NCBI GenBank assembly: GCA_902625945.1
Contig: CACODG010000001.1
Location: 1-64,000 of the forward strand
Direction of reading: 5' to 3'
DNA length: 64,000 nt
From: an uncultured Pelagibacteraceae bacterium
Lineage (GTDB): Bacteria > Pseudomonadota > Alphaproteobacteria > Pelagibacterales > Pelagibacteraceae
Part shown: positions 4,249 to 37,481 of the stretch, piece by piece
Layout of the letters: every line of letters starts with the position of its first letter
Numbering within the stretch: position 1 is the stretch's first letter
Made by a program: the position numbers and the translations under genes
The notes under the pieces: generated by a model
Databases searched by the model: none
Told to the model about the DNA's origin: nothing
Seen by the model: the letters and a program-made list of their open reading frames with translations, nothing else

Positions 4249-4611
4249 ATGTACGAATTATTTGCAAATCTTACTTTAGTTACACATTTAATTTTTATCT
4301 TCTTTGTTATTTTTGGAGGATTGCTCTTTTTTATTTTTTCAAAAATTATCTACATTCATCTTCCAGCATTATTATGGGGAATTTATATAGAGCTAACTAA
4401 TTCTGTTTGCCCGTTAACTTATTTAGAAAATTGGTTTTTATATAAAGGTGAGTTAACAACTTATTCTAATGATTTTATCAATAACTATCTTTTTCCAATA
4501 ATTTATCCTAAGGGCTTAACTGCTGAAATTCAAATATATCTAGGTATATTACTTATAGTTATTAATATTTTAATTTACGGATTAATTTATAAAAATTTGA
4601 AGTGTGATTAA
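4249..4611 (+). CDS. DUF2784 family membrane protein
   Basis: A 120-aa integral membrane protein. It has about three hydrophobic segments (residues 8-30, 34-50 and 95-115) and a central NSVCPLTYLENW stretch typical of DUF2784 proteins, whose function is unknown. It ends at 4611, one base before the 3' edge of the convergent tmRNA coding piece. A TTGACG at 4214 lies 17 nt from a poor -10, so its promoter is uncertain. Together with the methyltransferase it occupies the tmRNA-proximal strip that is often variable in bacterial genomes. Confidence 0.75.
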   Translation: MYELFANLTLVTHLIFIFFVIFGGLLFFIFSKIIYIHLPALLWGIYIELTNSVCPLTYLENWFLYKGELTTYSNDFINNYLFPIIYPKGLTAEIQIYLGILLIVINILIYGLIYKNLKCD

Positions 4612-4860
4612 GGGGCGTTCTGTTGCCAGGTGCCCCAAACCCCGTAACTTAATTAACTAAGTTAATTAAGCTGCAAGTGCAAATTTTTGATTTGCATTTG
4701 TAAATTAGCCCGTTACGTCGGAACCATCTCGAACGAAAGAACAGCCTTTAGACACCCGTCGATCCTGATTCACCCCCATAAGTTGTAAATGGTGGAGGTG
4801 GTGGGTACTGCCCCCACGTCCGTGATGTTTATTACGAAATTCGTTTATCGTCATAGTTGG
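4612..4860 (-). ncRNA. ssrA: tmRNA, circularly permuted two-piece form
   Basis: Read on the minus strand, the acceptor piece comes first. It ends at 4790 with an encoded CCA behind a T-arm (GTGGG-GGCAGTA-CCCAC) and the acceptor strand CACCTCC. A 12-nt spacer (4789-4778) follows. The coding piece then starts at 4777 with GGGGGTG, which pairs with CACCTCC over 7 bp including one G-U, followed by AATCAGGATCGACGGG. The tag frame ends GCA AAT CAA AAA TTT GCA CTT GCA GCT TAA (4695-4666), giving at least ANQKFALAA; the exact resume codon is uncertain. The 3' part folds into a GGGGC...GCCCC stem ending at 4612. The 5' edge of the acceptor piece near 4860 is approximate. tmRNA rescues stalled ribosomes and tags the unfinished protein. 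Confidence 0.9.
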
Positions 4861-4916
4861 AAAACCAACACTATTAATATAAAACTCTTTTAAAGAGATT
4901 CAATAATTAATTCAAA

Positions 4917-23595: not shown

Positions 23596-24486
23596 TTGTC
23601 AAAAAACTACACAGCTTATACATTCTTAGTGCTTGCAACTATGTTCTGGTCTGGAAACTTTATAGTTGGAAAATTTGCTACTCTATTCGAAATTCCACCT
23701 TTAACATTAAATTTTTATAGATGGGTTGTGGTTTGGTTGATCTTAATTCCATTCACTTTCAAAGAAATTTTAAACAAAAAACATTATATTAAAGAAAATT
23801 TGTTATTGATAAGTTTTATGGGCATTATAACAATCAGTACTTTTAACTCAGTTGTTTATTTTGCGCTTAATTATACTCAAGTAATAAATGCAGTATTAAT
23901 GTTAGCTGGTATACCAGCTGCTGTTATGATTTTGTCTTCAATTATGAATATAGAAAAAGCAAACATGTTTCAATTTACGGGATTGATTTTATCGATACTG
24001 GGTGTTGGAACAATTATTTCAAATGCAGACATCCAAAAAATTATTTCATTAAATTTTAATAAAGGAGATTTATGGATGTTAGTTTGTGTCTTGAGTTGGT
24101 CACTTTATTCAACTTTATTAAAAAAAAAAAAATTTGAACTATCTCAATTTTCATTTATTCAACTCATGGTCACAGTCGGTTTGATATTTCTCGTCCCGCA
24201 ATATTTCTATGAACGATCTATTGGACTAGAAATTCCAATTAATAAATTTTCAATAGCTATCCTACTTTACGTAGTAATTTTTCCTGCAATAGCTGCATAT
24301 TATTGTTGGCAGAAAGCTATTGAATTGATTGGGCCTAATAGATCAGCGATTTTTGTACAACTAATGCCATTGTTTAGCGCCTTAATGGCAATATTAATAT
24401 TTAAGGAGAAGTTTCAATTGTACCATTTTATCGGTGGAATTTTTATAGTATCAGGTATTTATTTATCGAATAGGAAAACTCAATGA
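23596..24486 (+). CDS. EamA/DMT-superfamily permease
   Basis: A 296-aa membrane protein with about ten hydrophobic segments in two repeated halves, each an EamA domain (about residues 8-145 and 160-290). Landmarks are MFWSGNFIVGKFA at the start and LMPLFSALMAILIFKE near the end. DMT permeases export or import metabolites; the substrate cannot be read. The start is TTG at 23596 behind AGGAA, and the stop overlaps the next ATG (ATGA). Confidence 0.85.
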   Translation: MSKNYTAYTFLVLATMFWSGNFIVGKFATLFEIPPLTLNFYRWVVVWLILIPFTFKEILNKKHYIKENLLLISFMGIITISTFNSVVYFALNYTQVINAVLMLAGIPAAVMILSSIMNIEKANMFQFTGLILSILGVGTIISNADIQKIISLNFNKGDLWMLVCVLSWSLYSTLLKKKKFELSQFSFIQLMVTVGLIFLVPQYFYERSIGLEIPINKFSIAILLYVVIFPAIAAYYCWQKAIELIGPNRSAIFVQLMPLFSALMAILIFKEKFQLYHFIGGIFIVSGIYLSNRKTQ

Positions 24487-25433
24487 TTAAAGTTGCAGTG
24501 CTCGATGATTACCAAGACGCTTTTAGTCAAATAATTGATTTGAAAAAATATAAAGATAAATATGATTTTAAAATCTTTAATGAGCCTTTTGTCAATGAAG
24601 AAGAGGCCAAAATAGAATTAGAGGAGTTTGAGGCTTTATTTGTTATGAGAGAAAGAACTCCTATAACAAGGTCGTTAATCGAAAATTTGCCTAATCTTAA
24701 GTACATAATGACCTCAGGTATGCGAAATAATTCTATTAATTTAGAAATTACAAAAAAGAAAGGTATTGTGGTTTGTGGAACTGAAATAAATTCAAATCCT
24801 GCTGCTGAGATCACTTGGGCCTTAATCTTAGGTCTTTTAAGAAATGTTAAACAAGAAATTGACAATATGTTTCAAGGGTATTGGCAGACCACAATCGGCT
24901 CAGAATTAAAAGGTAAAATGTTGGGAGTTATAGGATTAGGAAAAATTGGAACTCAAGTTGCAAAAGTAGGAAAAGCTTTTGGAATGGAAGTTTGTGCTTG
25001 GAGTGAAAATCTAAATTTATCCCATGCAAATCAACTTGACGTATTGCCAATGAGCAAGGAAGATTTAATTAAGAATTCAGATATCATTTCTATTCATTTA
25101 GTTTTGGGAGACAGATATAAAAATTTAATTACAAAAAAAGAGATTGATATGATGAAAAAAACAAGTTTTCTAATTAATACTTCTAGAGGACCAATTGTGA
25201 ATGAAAATGATTTAGTCGAAGCTTTAAAAGAAGAAAAAATAGCTGGAGCTGGTTTAGATGTTTACGATAAAGAACCTCTTCCACAAGATCATAAATTAAG
25301 ATTTCTTCCTAACGCATTGTTATTGCCCCATATTGGTTACGTTACAGCTGAAAATTACTCAAAATTTTATCTGCAAATGATGGAAAATCTTGAAAGTTGT
25401 TTAAATAACAAGCCTTTAAGATTAATCTCATAG
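24483..25433 (+). CDS. D-isomer-specific 2-hydroxyacid dehydrogenase
   Basis: A 316-aa NAD-dependent dehydrogenase of the SerA/LdhA fold, oxidizing or reducing a 2-hydroxy/2-oxo acid pair. The NAD motif GVIGLGKIGTQVAKVG is near residues 143-158. Catalytic residues are visible as Arg in NTSRGPIVNE (about 233-242), Glu in YDKEPLP and His in LPHIGY (about 292-297). It overlaps the EamA gene by 4 bp. With the DadA-like oxidase it could process an imino or keto acid product, which is inference. Confidence 0.85.
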   Translation: MIKVAVLDDYQDAFSQIIDLKKYKDKYDFKIFNEPFVNEEEAKIELEEFEALFVMRERTPITRSLIENLPNLKYIMTSGMRNNSINLEITKKKGIVVCGTEINSNPAAEITWALILGLLRNVKQEIDNMFQGYWQTTIGSELKGKMLGVIGLGKIGTQVAKVGKAFGMEVCAWSENLNLSHANQLDVLPMSKEDLIKNSDIISIHLVLGDRYKNLITKKEIDMMKKTSFLINTSRGPIVNENDLVEALKEEKIAGAGLDVYDKEPLPQDHKLRFLPNALLLPHIGYVTAENYSKFYLQMMENLESCLNNKPLRLIS

Positions 25434-25543
25434 TTAACTCTTCCATTATAGGTTGTATTAGATATAAACTCAATATGAGTGATTCGTTTGTTTTATAACG
25501 AACAAATCTCTGCTTAAAATAGTGAGAAATATAAAAAGGGAGT

Positions 25544-25945
25544 ATGAAAAAAATTTTAGGCTTATTGTTCACACTCATTTTGCTAACTGGATGTGCAGAG
25601 TCTTTAGCTCTACTAGGACCCTCCTCTACCGCAGTAACAGGTGGAAATATCGCTCAGTCAGCTTTTTCTTCAGCAGTTAATTACGGTGTAAAAAAACAAA
25701 CTGGAAAAAGCCCAATGGAACATGCAATTGCTTATGCTGAAGAAATGAATCCGCAGAAAAAAAATGAACCTTGTTTATCATTTGCTCAAAAAACAAACTC
25801 AGAAATATGCGCTATTGTAAAAAAACAATTAAAAATAACTAAATCTAAGATCTTAAAGAAATTAAACGAAAAGTCTATAAAAGACCTTACTTCATCTCTT
25901 CAGCCTAGTATAAATAAAAAATCAAAAATTAAGTATTTAGATTAA
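25544..25945 (+). CDS. Small lipoprotein, paralog 1 of a tandem pair
   Basis: A 133-aa predicted lipoprotein: signal peptide with lipobox LTGC (Cys17). After the Cys come AESLALLGP, a small-residue stretch, then NYGVKKQTGKSPMEHAIAYAEE (given here up to about residue 65), and two later cysteines spaced 13 apart. The tail is basic. The gene at 26086 shares all these elements, so the two are duplicates. A good ribosome site (AAAAAGGGAG) precedes the ATG. No function is known to me. Confidence 0.75.
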   Translation: MKKILGLLFTLILLTGCAESLALLGPSSTAVTGGNIAQSAFSSAVNYGVKKQTGKSPMEHAIAYAEEMNPQKKNEPCLSFAQKTNSEICAIVKKQLKITKSKILKKLNEKSIKDLTSSLQPSINKKSKIKYLD

Positions 25946-26085
25946 TTTTCTTTAAAACAAATCAGCACTTTAAATTTAAGATTTTAACCACCTTGGGTTG
26001 TGTGAATAAAAATTAATACTCTAATAATTAACTTTTATTTAAAGTTGAAGCAGATATATGGGATCAATCAAAACAAGTTTTAATC

Positions 26086-26493
26086 ATGAAAAAGATATTG
26101 CTTTTACTATCTACTATTTTCTTGCTAAACGGTTGCGCTGAATCTTTAGCATTACTCGGCCCAGGTGCCTCGAACGGAAGATTTGTTCAATCCAGTTTAA
26201 ATTCAGCAATAGGTTATGGGGTTAAAAAACAAACAGGAAAAACTCCTTTGGAACACGCTATTGCTTTCGCAGAAGAAAAAAATCCAGAGAGAAAAAAAGA
26301 AACCTGTATTTCTTCTTTTGAAATAACAAGGTCTGAATTTTGCACAATTGTTAAAAAACAAATTAAGTCTAAAACCACCGCTATGGTAGAAAAGACTACA
26401 GACTTTGTGAAAGAATTTCCAAAAAATAAAATTAAAGAAATATCTAAAATTGAAAAGATAGCAAAGAAATCAATTATTTATAATAGAAGGTAG
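26086..26493 (+). CDS. Small lipoprotein, paralog 2 of a tandem pair
   Basis: A 135-aa predicted lipoprotein with lipobox LNGC (Cys17), again followed by AESLALLGP, a GYGVKKQTGKTPLEHAIAF block, two conserved cysteines (about residues 80 and 91) and a Lys-rich C-terminus. It is the paralog of the gene at 25544. The 140-bp gap between them holds no ORF and no clear terminator, and no strong ribosome site precedes this ATG. The surviving C-terminal cysteines suggest a disulfide in the periplasm, which is inference. Confidence 0.75.
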   Translation: MKKILLLLSTIFLLNGCAESLALLGPGASNGRFVQSSLNSAIGYGVKKQTGKTPLEHAIAFAEEKNPERKKETCISSFEITRSEFCTIVKKQIKSKTTAMVEKTTDFVKEFPKNKIKEISKIEKIAKKSIIYNRR

Positions 26494-26539: not shown

Positions 26540-27832
26540 TTAAGCAGCTAAAGCTTGTTTAATATCTGCAATAATATCGTCAGGATGCTCGATACCAATT
26601 GATAATCTTACATATCCTGGTGTCACACCTGCCGCTGCTAATGCTGCATCATCCAATTGACTGTGTGTAGTAGTTGCTGGATGAATGGCTAAACTTCTAG
26701 CATCACCGATATTAGCAACATGATAAAGCATCTTTAAGTTATCAATAAACTTAGCTCCAGCTTCTTTGGTGCCTAAGTCCATTCCAACTAAAGAACCATA
26801 TCCACCTTGCATATATTTCTTAGCCCTTTCTTTAATTTCACCTTGGTGATTAGTAGGGTAGATTACATTCTTAACTTTCTTTTGAGTTTCTAAGAAAGAA
26901 ACAACTTTTTCAGCATTGCTACAGTGTTGTTTCATTCTAAGAGCAACTGTTTCCAACCCTTGAATGATTTGGAAAGCGTTAAATGGACTTAATGGAGCAC
27001 CTAAGTCTCTCAATAAAACCACTCTTGCTCTGATTACAAAAGGAATGTTAGCCCCAGTTAATTGAGGAACTGCATCTGCCCAAACTGCACCACCATAACT
27101 TTGATCAGGTTCATTTATTAATGGTTGTCTTTTTCTGTCTTTAATCCAGTCAAAGTTTCCACCATCAACAATAATCCCTCCAATTGATGTTCCATGACCT
27201 CCAATATATTTAGTCAATGAGTGCATTACGATAGCAGCTCCGTGAGCCAGAGGTTTACAAATCACCGGCGAAGCAGTGTTATCGATAATCAAAGGAATAC
27301 CTTTTTTTCTACCGATATCTGCAACCTCTTTAATTGGGAATACACGAAGGTAAGGATTAGGACAAGACTCACCGTAGTAAGCTCTTGTTTTATCATCAGT
27401 CACTTTTTCAAAGTTTTTAGGATCTGCAGGATCTGCAAATCTAACTTCAATACCTTGTTGTCTTAAAGTATTTTTGAATAAGTTTACTGTACCTCCATAT
27501 AAATCAGTTGAAGCAACAACGTTATCTCCAGCTTGTGCTAAATTTTGTATACACATTGCTGAAGCTGCTTGACCTGAACCTACCGCTAATGCTGCTACAC
27601 CACCTTCTAGTGCTGCAACTCTTTTTTCTAACACATCACATGTTGGGTTCATTATTCTTGTGTAAATATTACCAAACTCTTTTAAACCAAATAAATTTGC
27701 AGCGGTTTCTGCATTTTTAAATTGGTAAGAAGTTGTTTGGTAAATTGGAACTGCTACTGCTGTAGTTGCAGGATCACTTCTGTAATCACTACCATGCAAG
27801 CCAATAGTTTCCGGATGTTTAAAATCAGCCAT
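26540..27832 (-). CDS. metY: O-acetylhomoserine (thiol)-lyase
   Basis: PLP enzyme that makes homocysteine from O-acetylhomoserine and sulfide (or methionine from methanethiol). The 430-aa protein has the Cys/Met metabolism PLP fold; the PLP lysine is Lys208 in HSLTKYIGGHG, with GSGQAA at 85-90 contacting the phosphate. The ribosome site AAGGGGG (27846-27840) sits 7 nt before the ATG. The stop of a short upstream ORF overlaps the start. Upstream lie a SAM-V aptamer, an intrinsic terminator and a SAM-II aptamer, so expression should fall when SAM is plentiful. Confidence 0.95.
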   Translation of the reverse strand: MADFKHPETIGLHGSDYRSDPATTAVAVPIYQTTSYQFKNAETAANLFGLKEFGNIYTRIMNPTCDVLEKRVAALEGGVAALAVGSGQAASAMCIQNLAQAGDNVVASTDLYGGTVNLFKNTLRQQGIEVRFADPADPKNFEKVTDDKTRAYYGESCPNPYLRVFPIKEVADIGRKKGIPLIIDNTASPVICKPLAHGAAIVMHSLTKYIGGHGTSIGGIIVDGGNFDWIKDRKRQPLINEPDQSYGGAVWADAVPQLTGANIPFVIRARVVLLRDLGAPLSPFNAFQIIQGLETVALRMKQHCSNAEKVVSFLETQKKVKNVIYPTNHQGEIKERAKKYMQGGYGSLVGMDLGTKEAGAKFIDNLKMLYHVANIGDARSLAIHPATTTHSQLDDAALAAAGVTPGYVRLSIGIEHPDDIIADIKQALAA

Positions 27833-27920: not shown

Positions 27921-27927
27921 CTTCTCC
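27888..27927 (-). promoter_or_regulatory. Hairpin that hides the upstream-ORF ribosome site and ATG
   Basis: On the minus strand GGAGAAG-ATGAAC pairs with GTTCAT-T-CTTCTCC (13 bp, one bulged U), extended by GAATT/AATTC near the loop. The stem covers most of the Shine-Dalgarno (27924-27929) and the whole ATG (27918-27920). It lacks a U tract, so it is not a terminator. It may compete with the SAM-V fold. Confidence 0.6.
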
Positions 27928-27979
27928 TTTTTAGTACTTCGGCAAATGCCGGGTGTACAATATGGTTCAAATACCCGGT
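27924..27979 (-). promoter_or_regulatory. SAM-V riboswitch aptamer
   Basis: On the minus strand CCGGGT and ACCCGG form the main stem around TTTGAACC, and GTAC in the loop can pair with GTAC just before CTAAAAAGGAG to make the pseudoknot. The aptamer therefore contains the ribosome-binding sequence AAGGAG, so SAM binding should block translation. This matches the SAM-V class known from marine bacteria, related to SAM-II. Confidence 0.8.
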
Positions 27980-27997
27980 TTAATTTTAGATTTTTCC

Positions 27998-36239: not shown

Positions 36240-37481
36240 ATGAATAAAATAGCAAAACTATTTGTTACATTTATTTCAGCTATAACTTTAACGCTTGTAT
36301 CTTTCACTTCTTCTTTTGCAAAAGTAGAGGGAGAATACATTGTGTTAGGTTCTGCAATATCTCTTACAGGTAAGTACTCTTCAAATGGAGTTCATACTCA
36401 AAATGGTTATAACATGGCCGTTGACAGAATAAACAAAATGGGTGGAGTAGAAGTACAAGGTAAGAAATATAAGTTTGAGATCATTTACTATGATGATGAG
36501 TCAAACCCAAAAAGAGCCGCTCAGTTAGCTGAAAGACTAATTAAACAAGATGGCGTTCATTACATGCTTGGACCATACAGTTCAGGTTTAACGAAAGCCA
36601 TTGCACCAGTAACCGAGAAATATAAAATTCCTATGGTTGAAGCAAATGGTGCATCTAGATCTTTATTTACTAAAGGATATAAATATTTGTTCGCGGTGTT
36701 ATCGCCAGCTAACCAATACCTTGAAGTAGCTATTGATTTAGCGGTAGAAAAAAACGGTGGTAAAGGAGTAAAAATTGCTCAAGCATTTGAACAAGATGCT
36801 TTCTCTCAAGACGTGAGACTTGGTATTTTAGATGCAGCAAAAAGAACTGGATCTGAGATCATCATCGATGACAAACTACCAAAAGAACTTAACGATATGG
36901 CAGCTACATTGGCTAAAGTAAAAGCTGTTAAGCCAGATGTACTTGTTGTATCAGGTCACACAAAAGGTGCATTAACTGCAATCAGACAAATTTCTGAGAT
37001 GAAAGTTGATGTTCCTATGTTAGCGATGACACACTGTGATGCTGCTAAACTTTCTAAACAACACGGAAAGAAATCAGAATTCGCATTGTGTGCTTCTCAG
37101 TGGCACAAAAATTTATCTTATAAAGATAAATTCTTTGGCTCTGGTAAAAAATACGCTAAAGACTTCCAAAAAGAATTTGGATATGACCCGCCATATCAAT
37201 CAGCAGAGTCTTCTGCAGCATTGTTAGTATTTAAAGATGCGTTCGAAAGAGCAAATTCTTTTGATAGAGATGCAGTTAGAGATGCGCTAGTTGATACAGA
37301 AATGCAAACTTTCTATGGAAACATAAAATTTGGACCTGGTGGCCAAAACGTTGCTAAGCCAATGATCTTGTTCCAAGTAAGATGTAAAGGCGATGATTGT
37401 GAGAATAGAGTAGTTGCTCCGACAAAATGGGCTTCTGATAAGTTCTATCATCCAATCCCGAAATGGTCTGACAGAAGTTAA
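36240..37481 (+). CDS. Liv-type ABC transporter substrate-binding protein
   Basis: A 413-aa periplasmic binding protein of the branched-chain amino acid (HAAT) family. The signal peptide is residues 1-27 (ending SSFA). The mature part begins with VLGSAISLTGKYSSNG and has DGVHYMLGPYSSGLTKAIAPV near 99-120 (ends shown), typical of type I binding folds. It feeds livH-M-G-F downstream, beyond a strong terminator at 37501 that would keep the binding protein more abundant than the permease. The family also binds amides, urea and dicarboxylates, so leucine is not certain. Confidence 0.88.
   Translation: MNKIAKLFVTFISAITLTLVSFTSSFAKVEGEYIVLGSAISLTGKYSSNGVHTQNGYNMAVDRINKMGGVEVQGKKYKFEIIYYDDESNPKRAAQLAERLIKQDGVHYMLGPYSSGLTKAIAPVTEKYKIPMVEANGASRSLFTKGYKYLFAVLSPANQYLEVAIDLAVEKNGGKGVKIAQAFEQDAFSQDVRLGILDAAKRTGSEIIIDDKLPKELNDMAATLAKVKAVKPDVLVVSGHTKGALTAIRQISEMKVDVPMLAMTHCDAAKLSKQHGKKSEFALCASQWHKNLSYKDKFFGSGKKYAKDFQKEFGYDPPYQSAESSAALLVFKDAFERANSFDRDAVRDALVDTEMQTFYGNIKFGPGGQNVAKPMILFQVRCKGDDCENRVVAPTKWASDKFYHPIPKWSDRS

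Follow-up and report, generated by a model that had tools for sequence, protein, structure and literature searches.

SAR11 bacteria rank among the most abundant cells on the planet, and to our knowledge little is known about what holds their minimal envelope together and how it divides. Braun's lipoprotein, Lpp, is small and helical with a basic C terminus, and its C-terminal lysine is used for covalent linkage to the wall. Among Alphaproteobacteria, according to the excerpts available of the respective papers, the lipoprotein PapS of Rhodospirillum rubrum bridges the outer membrane and the wall (PMC11369160), homologs of DalA occur in 93% of Rhodobacterales genomes and in a variable, lower share of other Alphaproteobacteria (PMC10470522), and the SPOR domain binds peptidoglycan devoid of stem peptides (PMC7901474). 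In SAR11 itself, the available part of a further paper presents SAR11_1163/SAR11_1164 as a sulfur-limitation pair of unknown function (PMC5069961). The open-licence literature on SAR11/Pelagibacter lipoproteins and on alphaproteobacterial SPOR lipoproteins, as far as its available excerpts go, does not describe the family reported below among the matches listed.

We set beside these systems a tandem gene pair in a 64,000-nt stretch of Pelagibacteraceae DNA (the window), here called genes A and B:

25544..25945, + strand: gene A, a predicted 133-residue lipoprotein with signal peptide 1-16, Cys17 predicted to be lipid-modified, a module at 18-89 with C77 and C89, and then a basic tail ending in KIKYLD
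26086..26493, + strand: gene B, a predicted 135-residue lipoprotein with signal peptide 1-16, Cys17 predicted to be lipid-modified, a module at 18-86 with C74 and C86, and then a basic tail

An earlier sequence-only reading had proposed both genes with a lipobox at Cys17, a common segment after it, a shared central block, and two conserved later cysteines, and all of these were recovered from the open reading frames (ORFs). Cys17 is preceded by LLTG/LLNG and followed by AESLALLGP, and the block VKKQTGK(S/T)P(M/L)EHAIA occurs in both proteins (as TGKSPMEH and TGKTPLEH). A and B share 53% identity over 125 residues (E = 6.7e-35), so their likeness is not due to chance and, judged by it, they are paralogous lipoproteins. 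The envelope location suggested by the same reading was borne out as a prediction by the lipoprotein signal. The mature proteins are basic (pI 9.6 for A and 9.7 for B; net charge, +10 and +11), with a net charge of +1 to +13 for A and +8 to +19 for B over the ortholog set. AlphaFold2 (50 sequences) did not predict a fold with confidence (mean pLDDT, 59; pTM, 0.25); the low-confidence model was mostly helical (residues 32-50, 54-65, 84-110, and 116-128).

The surroundings of the pair in the window are as follows:

24483..25433, + strand: D-isomer 2-hydroxyacid dehydrogenase (Pfam PF02826/PF00389), upstream neighbor
26540..27832, - strand: MetY-like enzyme (by reading of the ORF), convergent downstream neighbor
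27921-27985, - strand: SAM-V riboswitch ahead of the MetY-like gene (71 bits against a cut-off of 41)
Further upstream: mreB, mreC/D, mrdA, and rodA (by reading of the ORFs), a bactofilin gene, and a FAD oxidoreductase gene
Between the FAD oxidoreductase and the D-2-hydroxyacid dehydrogenase: an EamA-type transporter gene (by reading of the ORF)

A SAM-V riboswitch before a MetY-like gene is known in Pelagibacter, and neither the dehydrogenase nor the MetY-like neighbor with its riboswitch is thought to be part of the function of A and B. Elsewhere, at 4575-4907 (- strand), the window carries a permuted alphaproteobacterial tmRNA with the tag ANQKFALAA.

With the A/B profile at E values of up to 10, the window's genome (786 kb, 71% complete) showed no family members besides A and B. 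Within the sampled genus (53 genomes, many of them incomplete), 31 genomes had two matches, 16 had one, and 6 had none; the pair is thus common there but not universal. We inspected 81 loci, namely, the window and the best 80 of 115 matches, a sample that favors genomes like that of the window. The two genes lie side by side in 77 of them. The exceptions are a locus with A in two pieces (L117), one at a contig end (L133), and two with a single gene (L134 and L144). Homologs of the dehydrogenase and of the MetY-like enzyme were each found at 78 of the 81 loci, and both together at 75.

The sequence-only reading had also suggested that the tandem duplicate is kept by selection, and here it gained support. 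The dN/dS ratio was 0.179 for gene A (1,819 pairs) and 0.199 for gene B (2,231 pairs; NG86, ratio of means, pairs with dS of 0.1 to 1.5), a level at which both genes are, by this estimate, under purifying selection. Six residues, C17, T50, G51, H57, C74, and C86 (B numbering), are invariant across 50 selected members of the genus. A spacing of 11 residues between the later cysteines is seen in 152 of the 153 readable A/B proteins (154 in total), and the two may form a disulfide. AES after the lipobox is not universal, being replaced by other letters in 7 of the 154. The C termini are conserved as well (KYLD in 46/77 A proteins and IYNRR in 62/77 B proteins).

Alike N-terminal halves in L130, L135, L136, and other loci raised gene conversion between A and B as a candidate, which we rejected. 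In each of three segments, none of 140 genes had its nearest neighbor in the other paralog (70 of the 77 loci; the lipobox pattern missed the A protein of the 7 that were dropped). In trees of 80 rows, from 40 hand-chosen loci among the 70, the C-terminal part placed A and B on opposite sides of one branch with a support of 100, and the N-terminal part did not reject a single clade (p-AU = 0.863). By these comparisons, A and B form two ortholog groups.

Each gene is preceded by a conserved noncoding leader:

25434..25543, + strand: leader of gene A, with RGTTGT at about -92, the palindrome ACTCAnnnTGAGT, and then a second inverted repeat, GTTTGTTTTATAACGAAC
25946..26085, + strand: A-B spacer, the leader of gene B, with RGTTGT at about -90 and an AT-rich inverted repeat, AATAAAAATTAA..TTAACTTTTATT

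The A leader (110 nt) shows a mean column identity of 75% over 14 aligned sequences, with 42 invariant columns, of which 4 fall in the gene start, and the B leader (140 nt) shows 76% over 16 aligned spacers. An RGTTGT element occurs no more than 170 nt upstream of A at 76/76 loci (median, -92) and of B at 76/76 (median, -90) versus 4/66 other ORFs of the window; the loci are related and hence not independent, and the control ORFs were called mechanically and may include nongenes. A further RGTTGT match precedes the window's A at -149, within the dehydrogenase gene, and in the two g2 genomes that were read, the element occurs at one place, ahead of the first gene of L161. Of 31 genomes, 6 had a hit to a fixed-spacing pattern of the A element, once each and in front of A. 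The misses probably arise because the spacer in the A leader is 2 nt shorter in 9 of the 14 aligned leaders. This conservation suggests separate regulatory regions for A and B. Folding of the leaders as RNA is not convincing: the A-leader consensus is weak (-5.74 kcal/mol; two-sided change in 3 of 16 pairs), and the B leader gave no significant fold (z = 0.78; consensus, -1.54 kcal/mol). Upstream of B, at 26028-26042, the window also has TTAA-N7-TTAA, which resembles a CtrA box. It is broken in five of the 16 aligned spacers (L128, L130, L131, L136, and L137) and may be due to chance in an AT-rich genome.

The sequence-only reading had placed A and B in no known family. As regards names, this stands: in Pfam, NCBIfam, PHROG, and PDB, no family fitted, and we obtained LPAM_1 and weak, scattered matches only, part of these searches covering the best 25 of 27, 40, and 48 families. 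A clear match to a characterized lipoprotein family, the outcome which that reading had named as contrary evidence, was not found there. SPOR (PF05036) gave no match in A or B at E values of up to 10, and Lpp gave none in Pfam. What did not stand is the impression of an isolated novelty, as A and B were traced to a SAR11-wide family whose block also occurs in lipoproteins of many other Alphaproteobacteria.

Some of the weak matches bear on a different idea, that A and B are Cor-like phage-exclusion or surface lipoproteins forming a variable defense pair. NCBIfam/PHROG Cor entries appeared for 10 of 32 members among the matches listed (best E values, 0.012 and 0.0058), and small lipoproteins arranged in tandem would suit such a role. 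However, the match of B to Cor (NF047972) reached 15.6 bits, half of the curated cut-off of 31, and in the five members searched by their mature parts, no Cor match remained once the signal peptide had been removed; on this ground we rejected Cor-like phage exclusion. The locus is moreover fixed between the same two genes and under purifying selection, and viral contigs searched with B yielded no close relative. We regard a defense role as very improbable.

The family extends across SAR11. Protein B, searched in a family-rank draw, matched 132 of 197 genomes at E values of ≤0.01, in 13 of 14 genera, and profile A1, built from A and B, matched 101 of 197 genomes at order rank. Tandem family genes are also present in genera g2 (L161 and L162) and g5 (L165), and a dehydrogenase homolog also lies near family members in g2 and g4; in general, the neighbors of family members vary between SAR11 genera. 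A family-like lipoprotein at L155:5037-5327 (G026:C1 65036-65326, - strand), in the genome taken for HTCC1062, immediately follows two pilin-like ORFs and has pilC/pilB-like ORFs nearby, and pilin-like ORFs also lie a few kilobases from the member in L157 and L160 (all names by reading). Six members (L053, L057, L058, L155, L163, and L166) have a different C-terminal block in common, an HS/FF-containing stretch (e.g., HSSxLxEIFFxT) with an aspartate-cysteine near the end; in L053 and L057, the cysteines are 20 apart.

At class rank, A1 matched 5 of 289 genomes: the window's own, two of the same family, G426 (weakly), and G342. The match in G342 is a SAR11-like lipoprotein (L063, G342:C154) on a 3.1-kb stretch of 26% GC within a 3-Mb genome of another family, and the stretch may be a misplaced SAR11 contig. 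By itself, this search would have suggested a SAR11-only family; the wider link came via genera g5 and g9. Their members carry the block as TGKKMSEHALSKITDKDC-x13-C, TGKKISEHALSFATGQDC-x9-C, and TGKNKVEHLSSKLLNKDC-x9-C (pattern TGKKMSEHALS..DC..C), which resembles a motif of other Alphaproteobacteria, and this likeness led to a class-wide profile test. Profile A5, made of the three g5/g9 sequences, matched 37 of 190 class genomes at E values of ≤0.05 (own genome and G009 included), and a TGK-[DE]H-type motif was present in a protein at 19 of the 28 loci L181 to L208.

From these loci we built profile A6, with 17 rows and none from SAR11 (L199 was left out for its long spacer and L202 for its closeness to L201). 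In the window's genome, A6 hit gene A (2.4e-5) and gene B (4.9e-5) and nothing else at E values of ≤0.5. Within the genus, it matched 47 of 55 genomes at E values of ≤0.5 and 44 at ≤0.01. The class draw gave 88 of 289 genomes at E values of ≤0.001, two SAR11 and 86 non-SAR11, and the phylum draw gave 7 of 200, two of them outside the class. As signal peptides help such matches, we cut them off in a module-only profile, also leaving out the AT-rich row L181. The 147 A/B proteins covered (of 154; the same 7 missed by the lipobox pattern are not included) had a median score of 13.2 bits (13.2 for A and 12.0 for B), and 95.9% of A/B proteins lay above the maximum of 6.2 bits reached by shuffles (2,940 shuffles, of which 1,563 were scored). 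Profile-profile comparison by hhalign (SAR11 versus alphaproteobacterial) returned E values of 9.5e-8 without the SAR11-side signal peptide, 1.8e-9, and 2.9e-13.

We collected 42 distinct proteins as relatives, one of which (L243) comes from outside the class. After the lipobox, their module reads TGK-x3-DHA-x-S-x5-DC-x~11-C, compared with YGVKKQTGK-x-P-x-EHA...C-x11-C in A and B. [TSG]GK-x(2-4)-[DE]H is present in 28 of the 42, and the cysteines are 11 apart in 26 of the 38 that are readable and 10 to 16 apart in the others. The first cysteine directly follows an aspartate in the relatives, whereas it follows proline in A and threonine in B; in nearly all A/B proteins it comes 24 positions after the T of TGK, which is some 7 positions later than in the relatives read.

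The likeness could in principle reflect convergence on a short motif, with A and B being SAR11 only and unrelated in function. The common block is indeed short (about 45 residues), and the A6 rows came from a SAR11-seeded search (g5/g9 likeness and then a motif filter, 17 of 28 loci), a choice that biases the profile toward SAR11 likeness in general, though g1 contributed no row to it. A trimmed SAR11 profile, A4, matched 19 of 240 class genomes at E values of ≤0.5, and outside SAR11 these matches were at chance level except for G342 (E = 0.0014). The two later cysteines are missing from several members in other SAR11 genera, and with the module-only profile such members mostly scored below 5 bits, some near zero; scores were also low for L053 (5.0 bits) and for L057 and L058 (<1 bit), which have later cysteines. 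For these members the family link therefore comes from A1 alone. Convergence would nevertheless have to produce the lipobox, TGK, (D/E)H, and two cysteines mostly 11 apart, all in the same order, with the g5/g9 members intermediate, A and B as the sole A6 hits in their genome, and shuffles scoring below A and B. We consider it quite improbable. That A and B belong to a SAR11-wide family and, with it, to an alphaproteobacterial TGK-DH-DC-C lipoprotein family is well supported by these profile comparisons. The reality of the latter family is argued from the 86 non-SAR11 class genomes and the common motif order, and it seems to be without a model in the libraries searched.

The sulfur-limitation pair was also considered as kin and rejected, as by eye neither ORF (1119467-1119844 and 1119848-1120411 of the genome taken for HTCC1062, both - strand) has a lipobox or the module. 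The best A1 or A6 match in the 5-kb stretch around the two genes was 2.7 bits (genome position from the available part of PMC2704228).

The relatives give the main clue to function. Thirteen of the 42 contain a SPOR domain (Pfam, E ≤ 0.001), a type of domain that binds septal peptidoglycan, and no other Pfam family matched; in a smaller set, SPOR was present in 6 of 10 relatives, there near the C terminus. Among 13 genomes of the window's genus, of which several are incomplete, none had SPOR over the Pfam cut-off; in another family of the order, 4 of 8 genomes had it. The window's own genome has one subthreshold SPOR match, in an RlpA-like lipoprotein ORF (L252; G000:C3, around position 36881) located between mltB-like and dacA-like ORFs (names by reading).

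By reading, 15 of 27 relative loci adjoin aspS-like, mdh-like, or TPR genes, and none of these neighbors was recognized at the other 12. The gene is aspS at six loci (L184, L188, L193, L195, L196, and L207), some with an EipB-like gene, and malate dehydrogenase at seven (L185, L187, L191, L192, L194, L198, and L204), four of which also have an AFG1-like ATPase. Pfam confirmed one example per neighbor type, and the EipB-like gene in L184 and L196. The AFG1-like protein ZapE acts in cell division, according to the available parts of two papers (PMC7314023 and PMC8503651).

At the remaining two loci the neighbor is a TPR gene (L183 and L203), and in L183 a BamB-like gene lies next to it. This adjacency is what one might expect if the module bound an outer membrane protein (a porin, BAM, or a transporter), in which case A and B would be accessory subunits and not wall linkers. 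Rhodospirillum has a porin-binding lipoprotein, PapS (excerpts of PMC11369160), and A and B have no recognized wall-binding domain in Pfam. On the other hand, the BamB-like neighbor occurs at only 1 of 27 loci, and an OmpA-like domain of the PapS type had no Pfam match in A, in B, or in the 42 relatives. An accessory-subunit role is in our estimation unlikely, although less so than convergence.

Our preferred reading is that A and B link the outer membrane to the wall, and at the least they probably help to hold or shape the cell envelope. Signal peptidase II would cleave both proteins before Cys17, and the alanine at +2, by a sorting rule established for E. coli lipoproteins, would probably direct them to the outer membrane and into its inner leaflet. 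The conserved module after the anchor would dock onto a partner in the envelope close to the outer membrane, and, SPOR being absent, the basic, predicted-helical tail in its place would touch the anionic peptidoglycan. A and B would then act in growth or division as linkers or adaptors between the outer membrane and the wall, and each gene would have a regulatory region to itself. We favor the wall-linker reading also because of the mre/mrd/rodA and bactofilin genes upstream, the basic mature proteins, and the neighbors of the relatives. The tie between module and wall is one of association, as SPOR, for which alone among the parts of the relatives a ligand is known, is absent from A and B. 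We assign the full linker/adaptor explanation a probability of roughly 0.45.

A broader and more speculative version, which we hold to be rather unlikely as a whole, is that the approximately 45-residue TGK-[DE]H-C-C envelope module is a lineage-wide scaffold for growth or division, tethered to the septal wall by SPOR in many bacteria and carried in this SAR11 genus by a lipoprotein pair with basic tails that contact the wall and with separate conserved leaders. If the family assignment is true, "hypothetical" SAR11 lipoproteins would be tied to an undescribed alphaproteobacterial family with genetically tractable members (SPOR-bearing ones, next to aspS-like/EipB-like or mdh-like/AFG1-like genes) in which it can be studied, one that is lacking in the libraries searched and would be new to Pfam-type databases.

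Compared with the known systems, A and B recall Lpp in some respects, yet A ends in LD and B in RR where Lpp has the C-terminal lysine for linkage. PapS offers an analogy only, since it works through an OmpA-like domain (available part of PMC11369160), for which A, B, and their relatives gave no match. DalA (RSP_1200) of Rhodobacter sphaeroides is likewise a small alphaproteobacterial outer membrane lipoprotein, likened here by description only (available part of PMC10470522). Dshi_0924 of Dinoroseobacter shibae, a "sporulation domain protein," was set beside A and B by description only and could be a relative. The SPOR lipoproteins of Alphaproteobacteria (e.g., L184, L188, L193, and L201) share the lipobox and the module with A and B; they continue into a longer linker and SPOR, whereas A and B continue into a basic tail.
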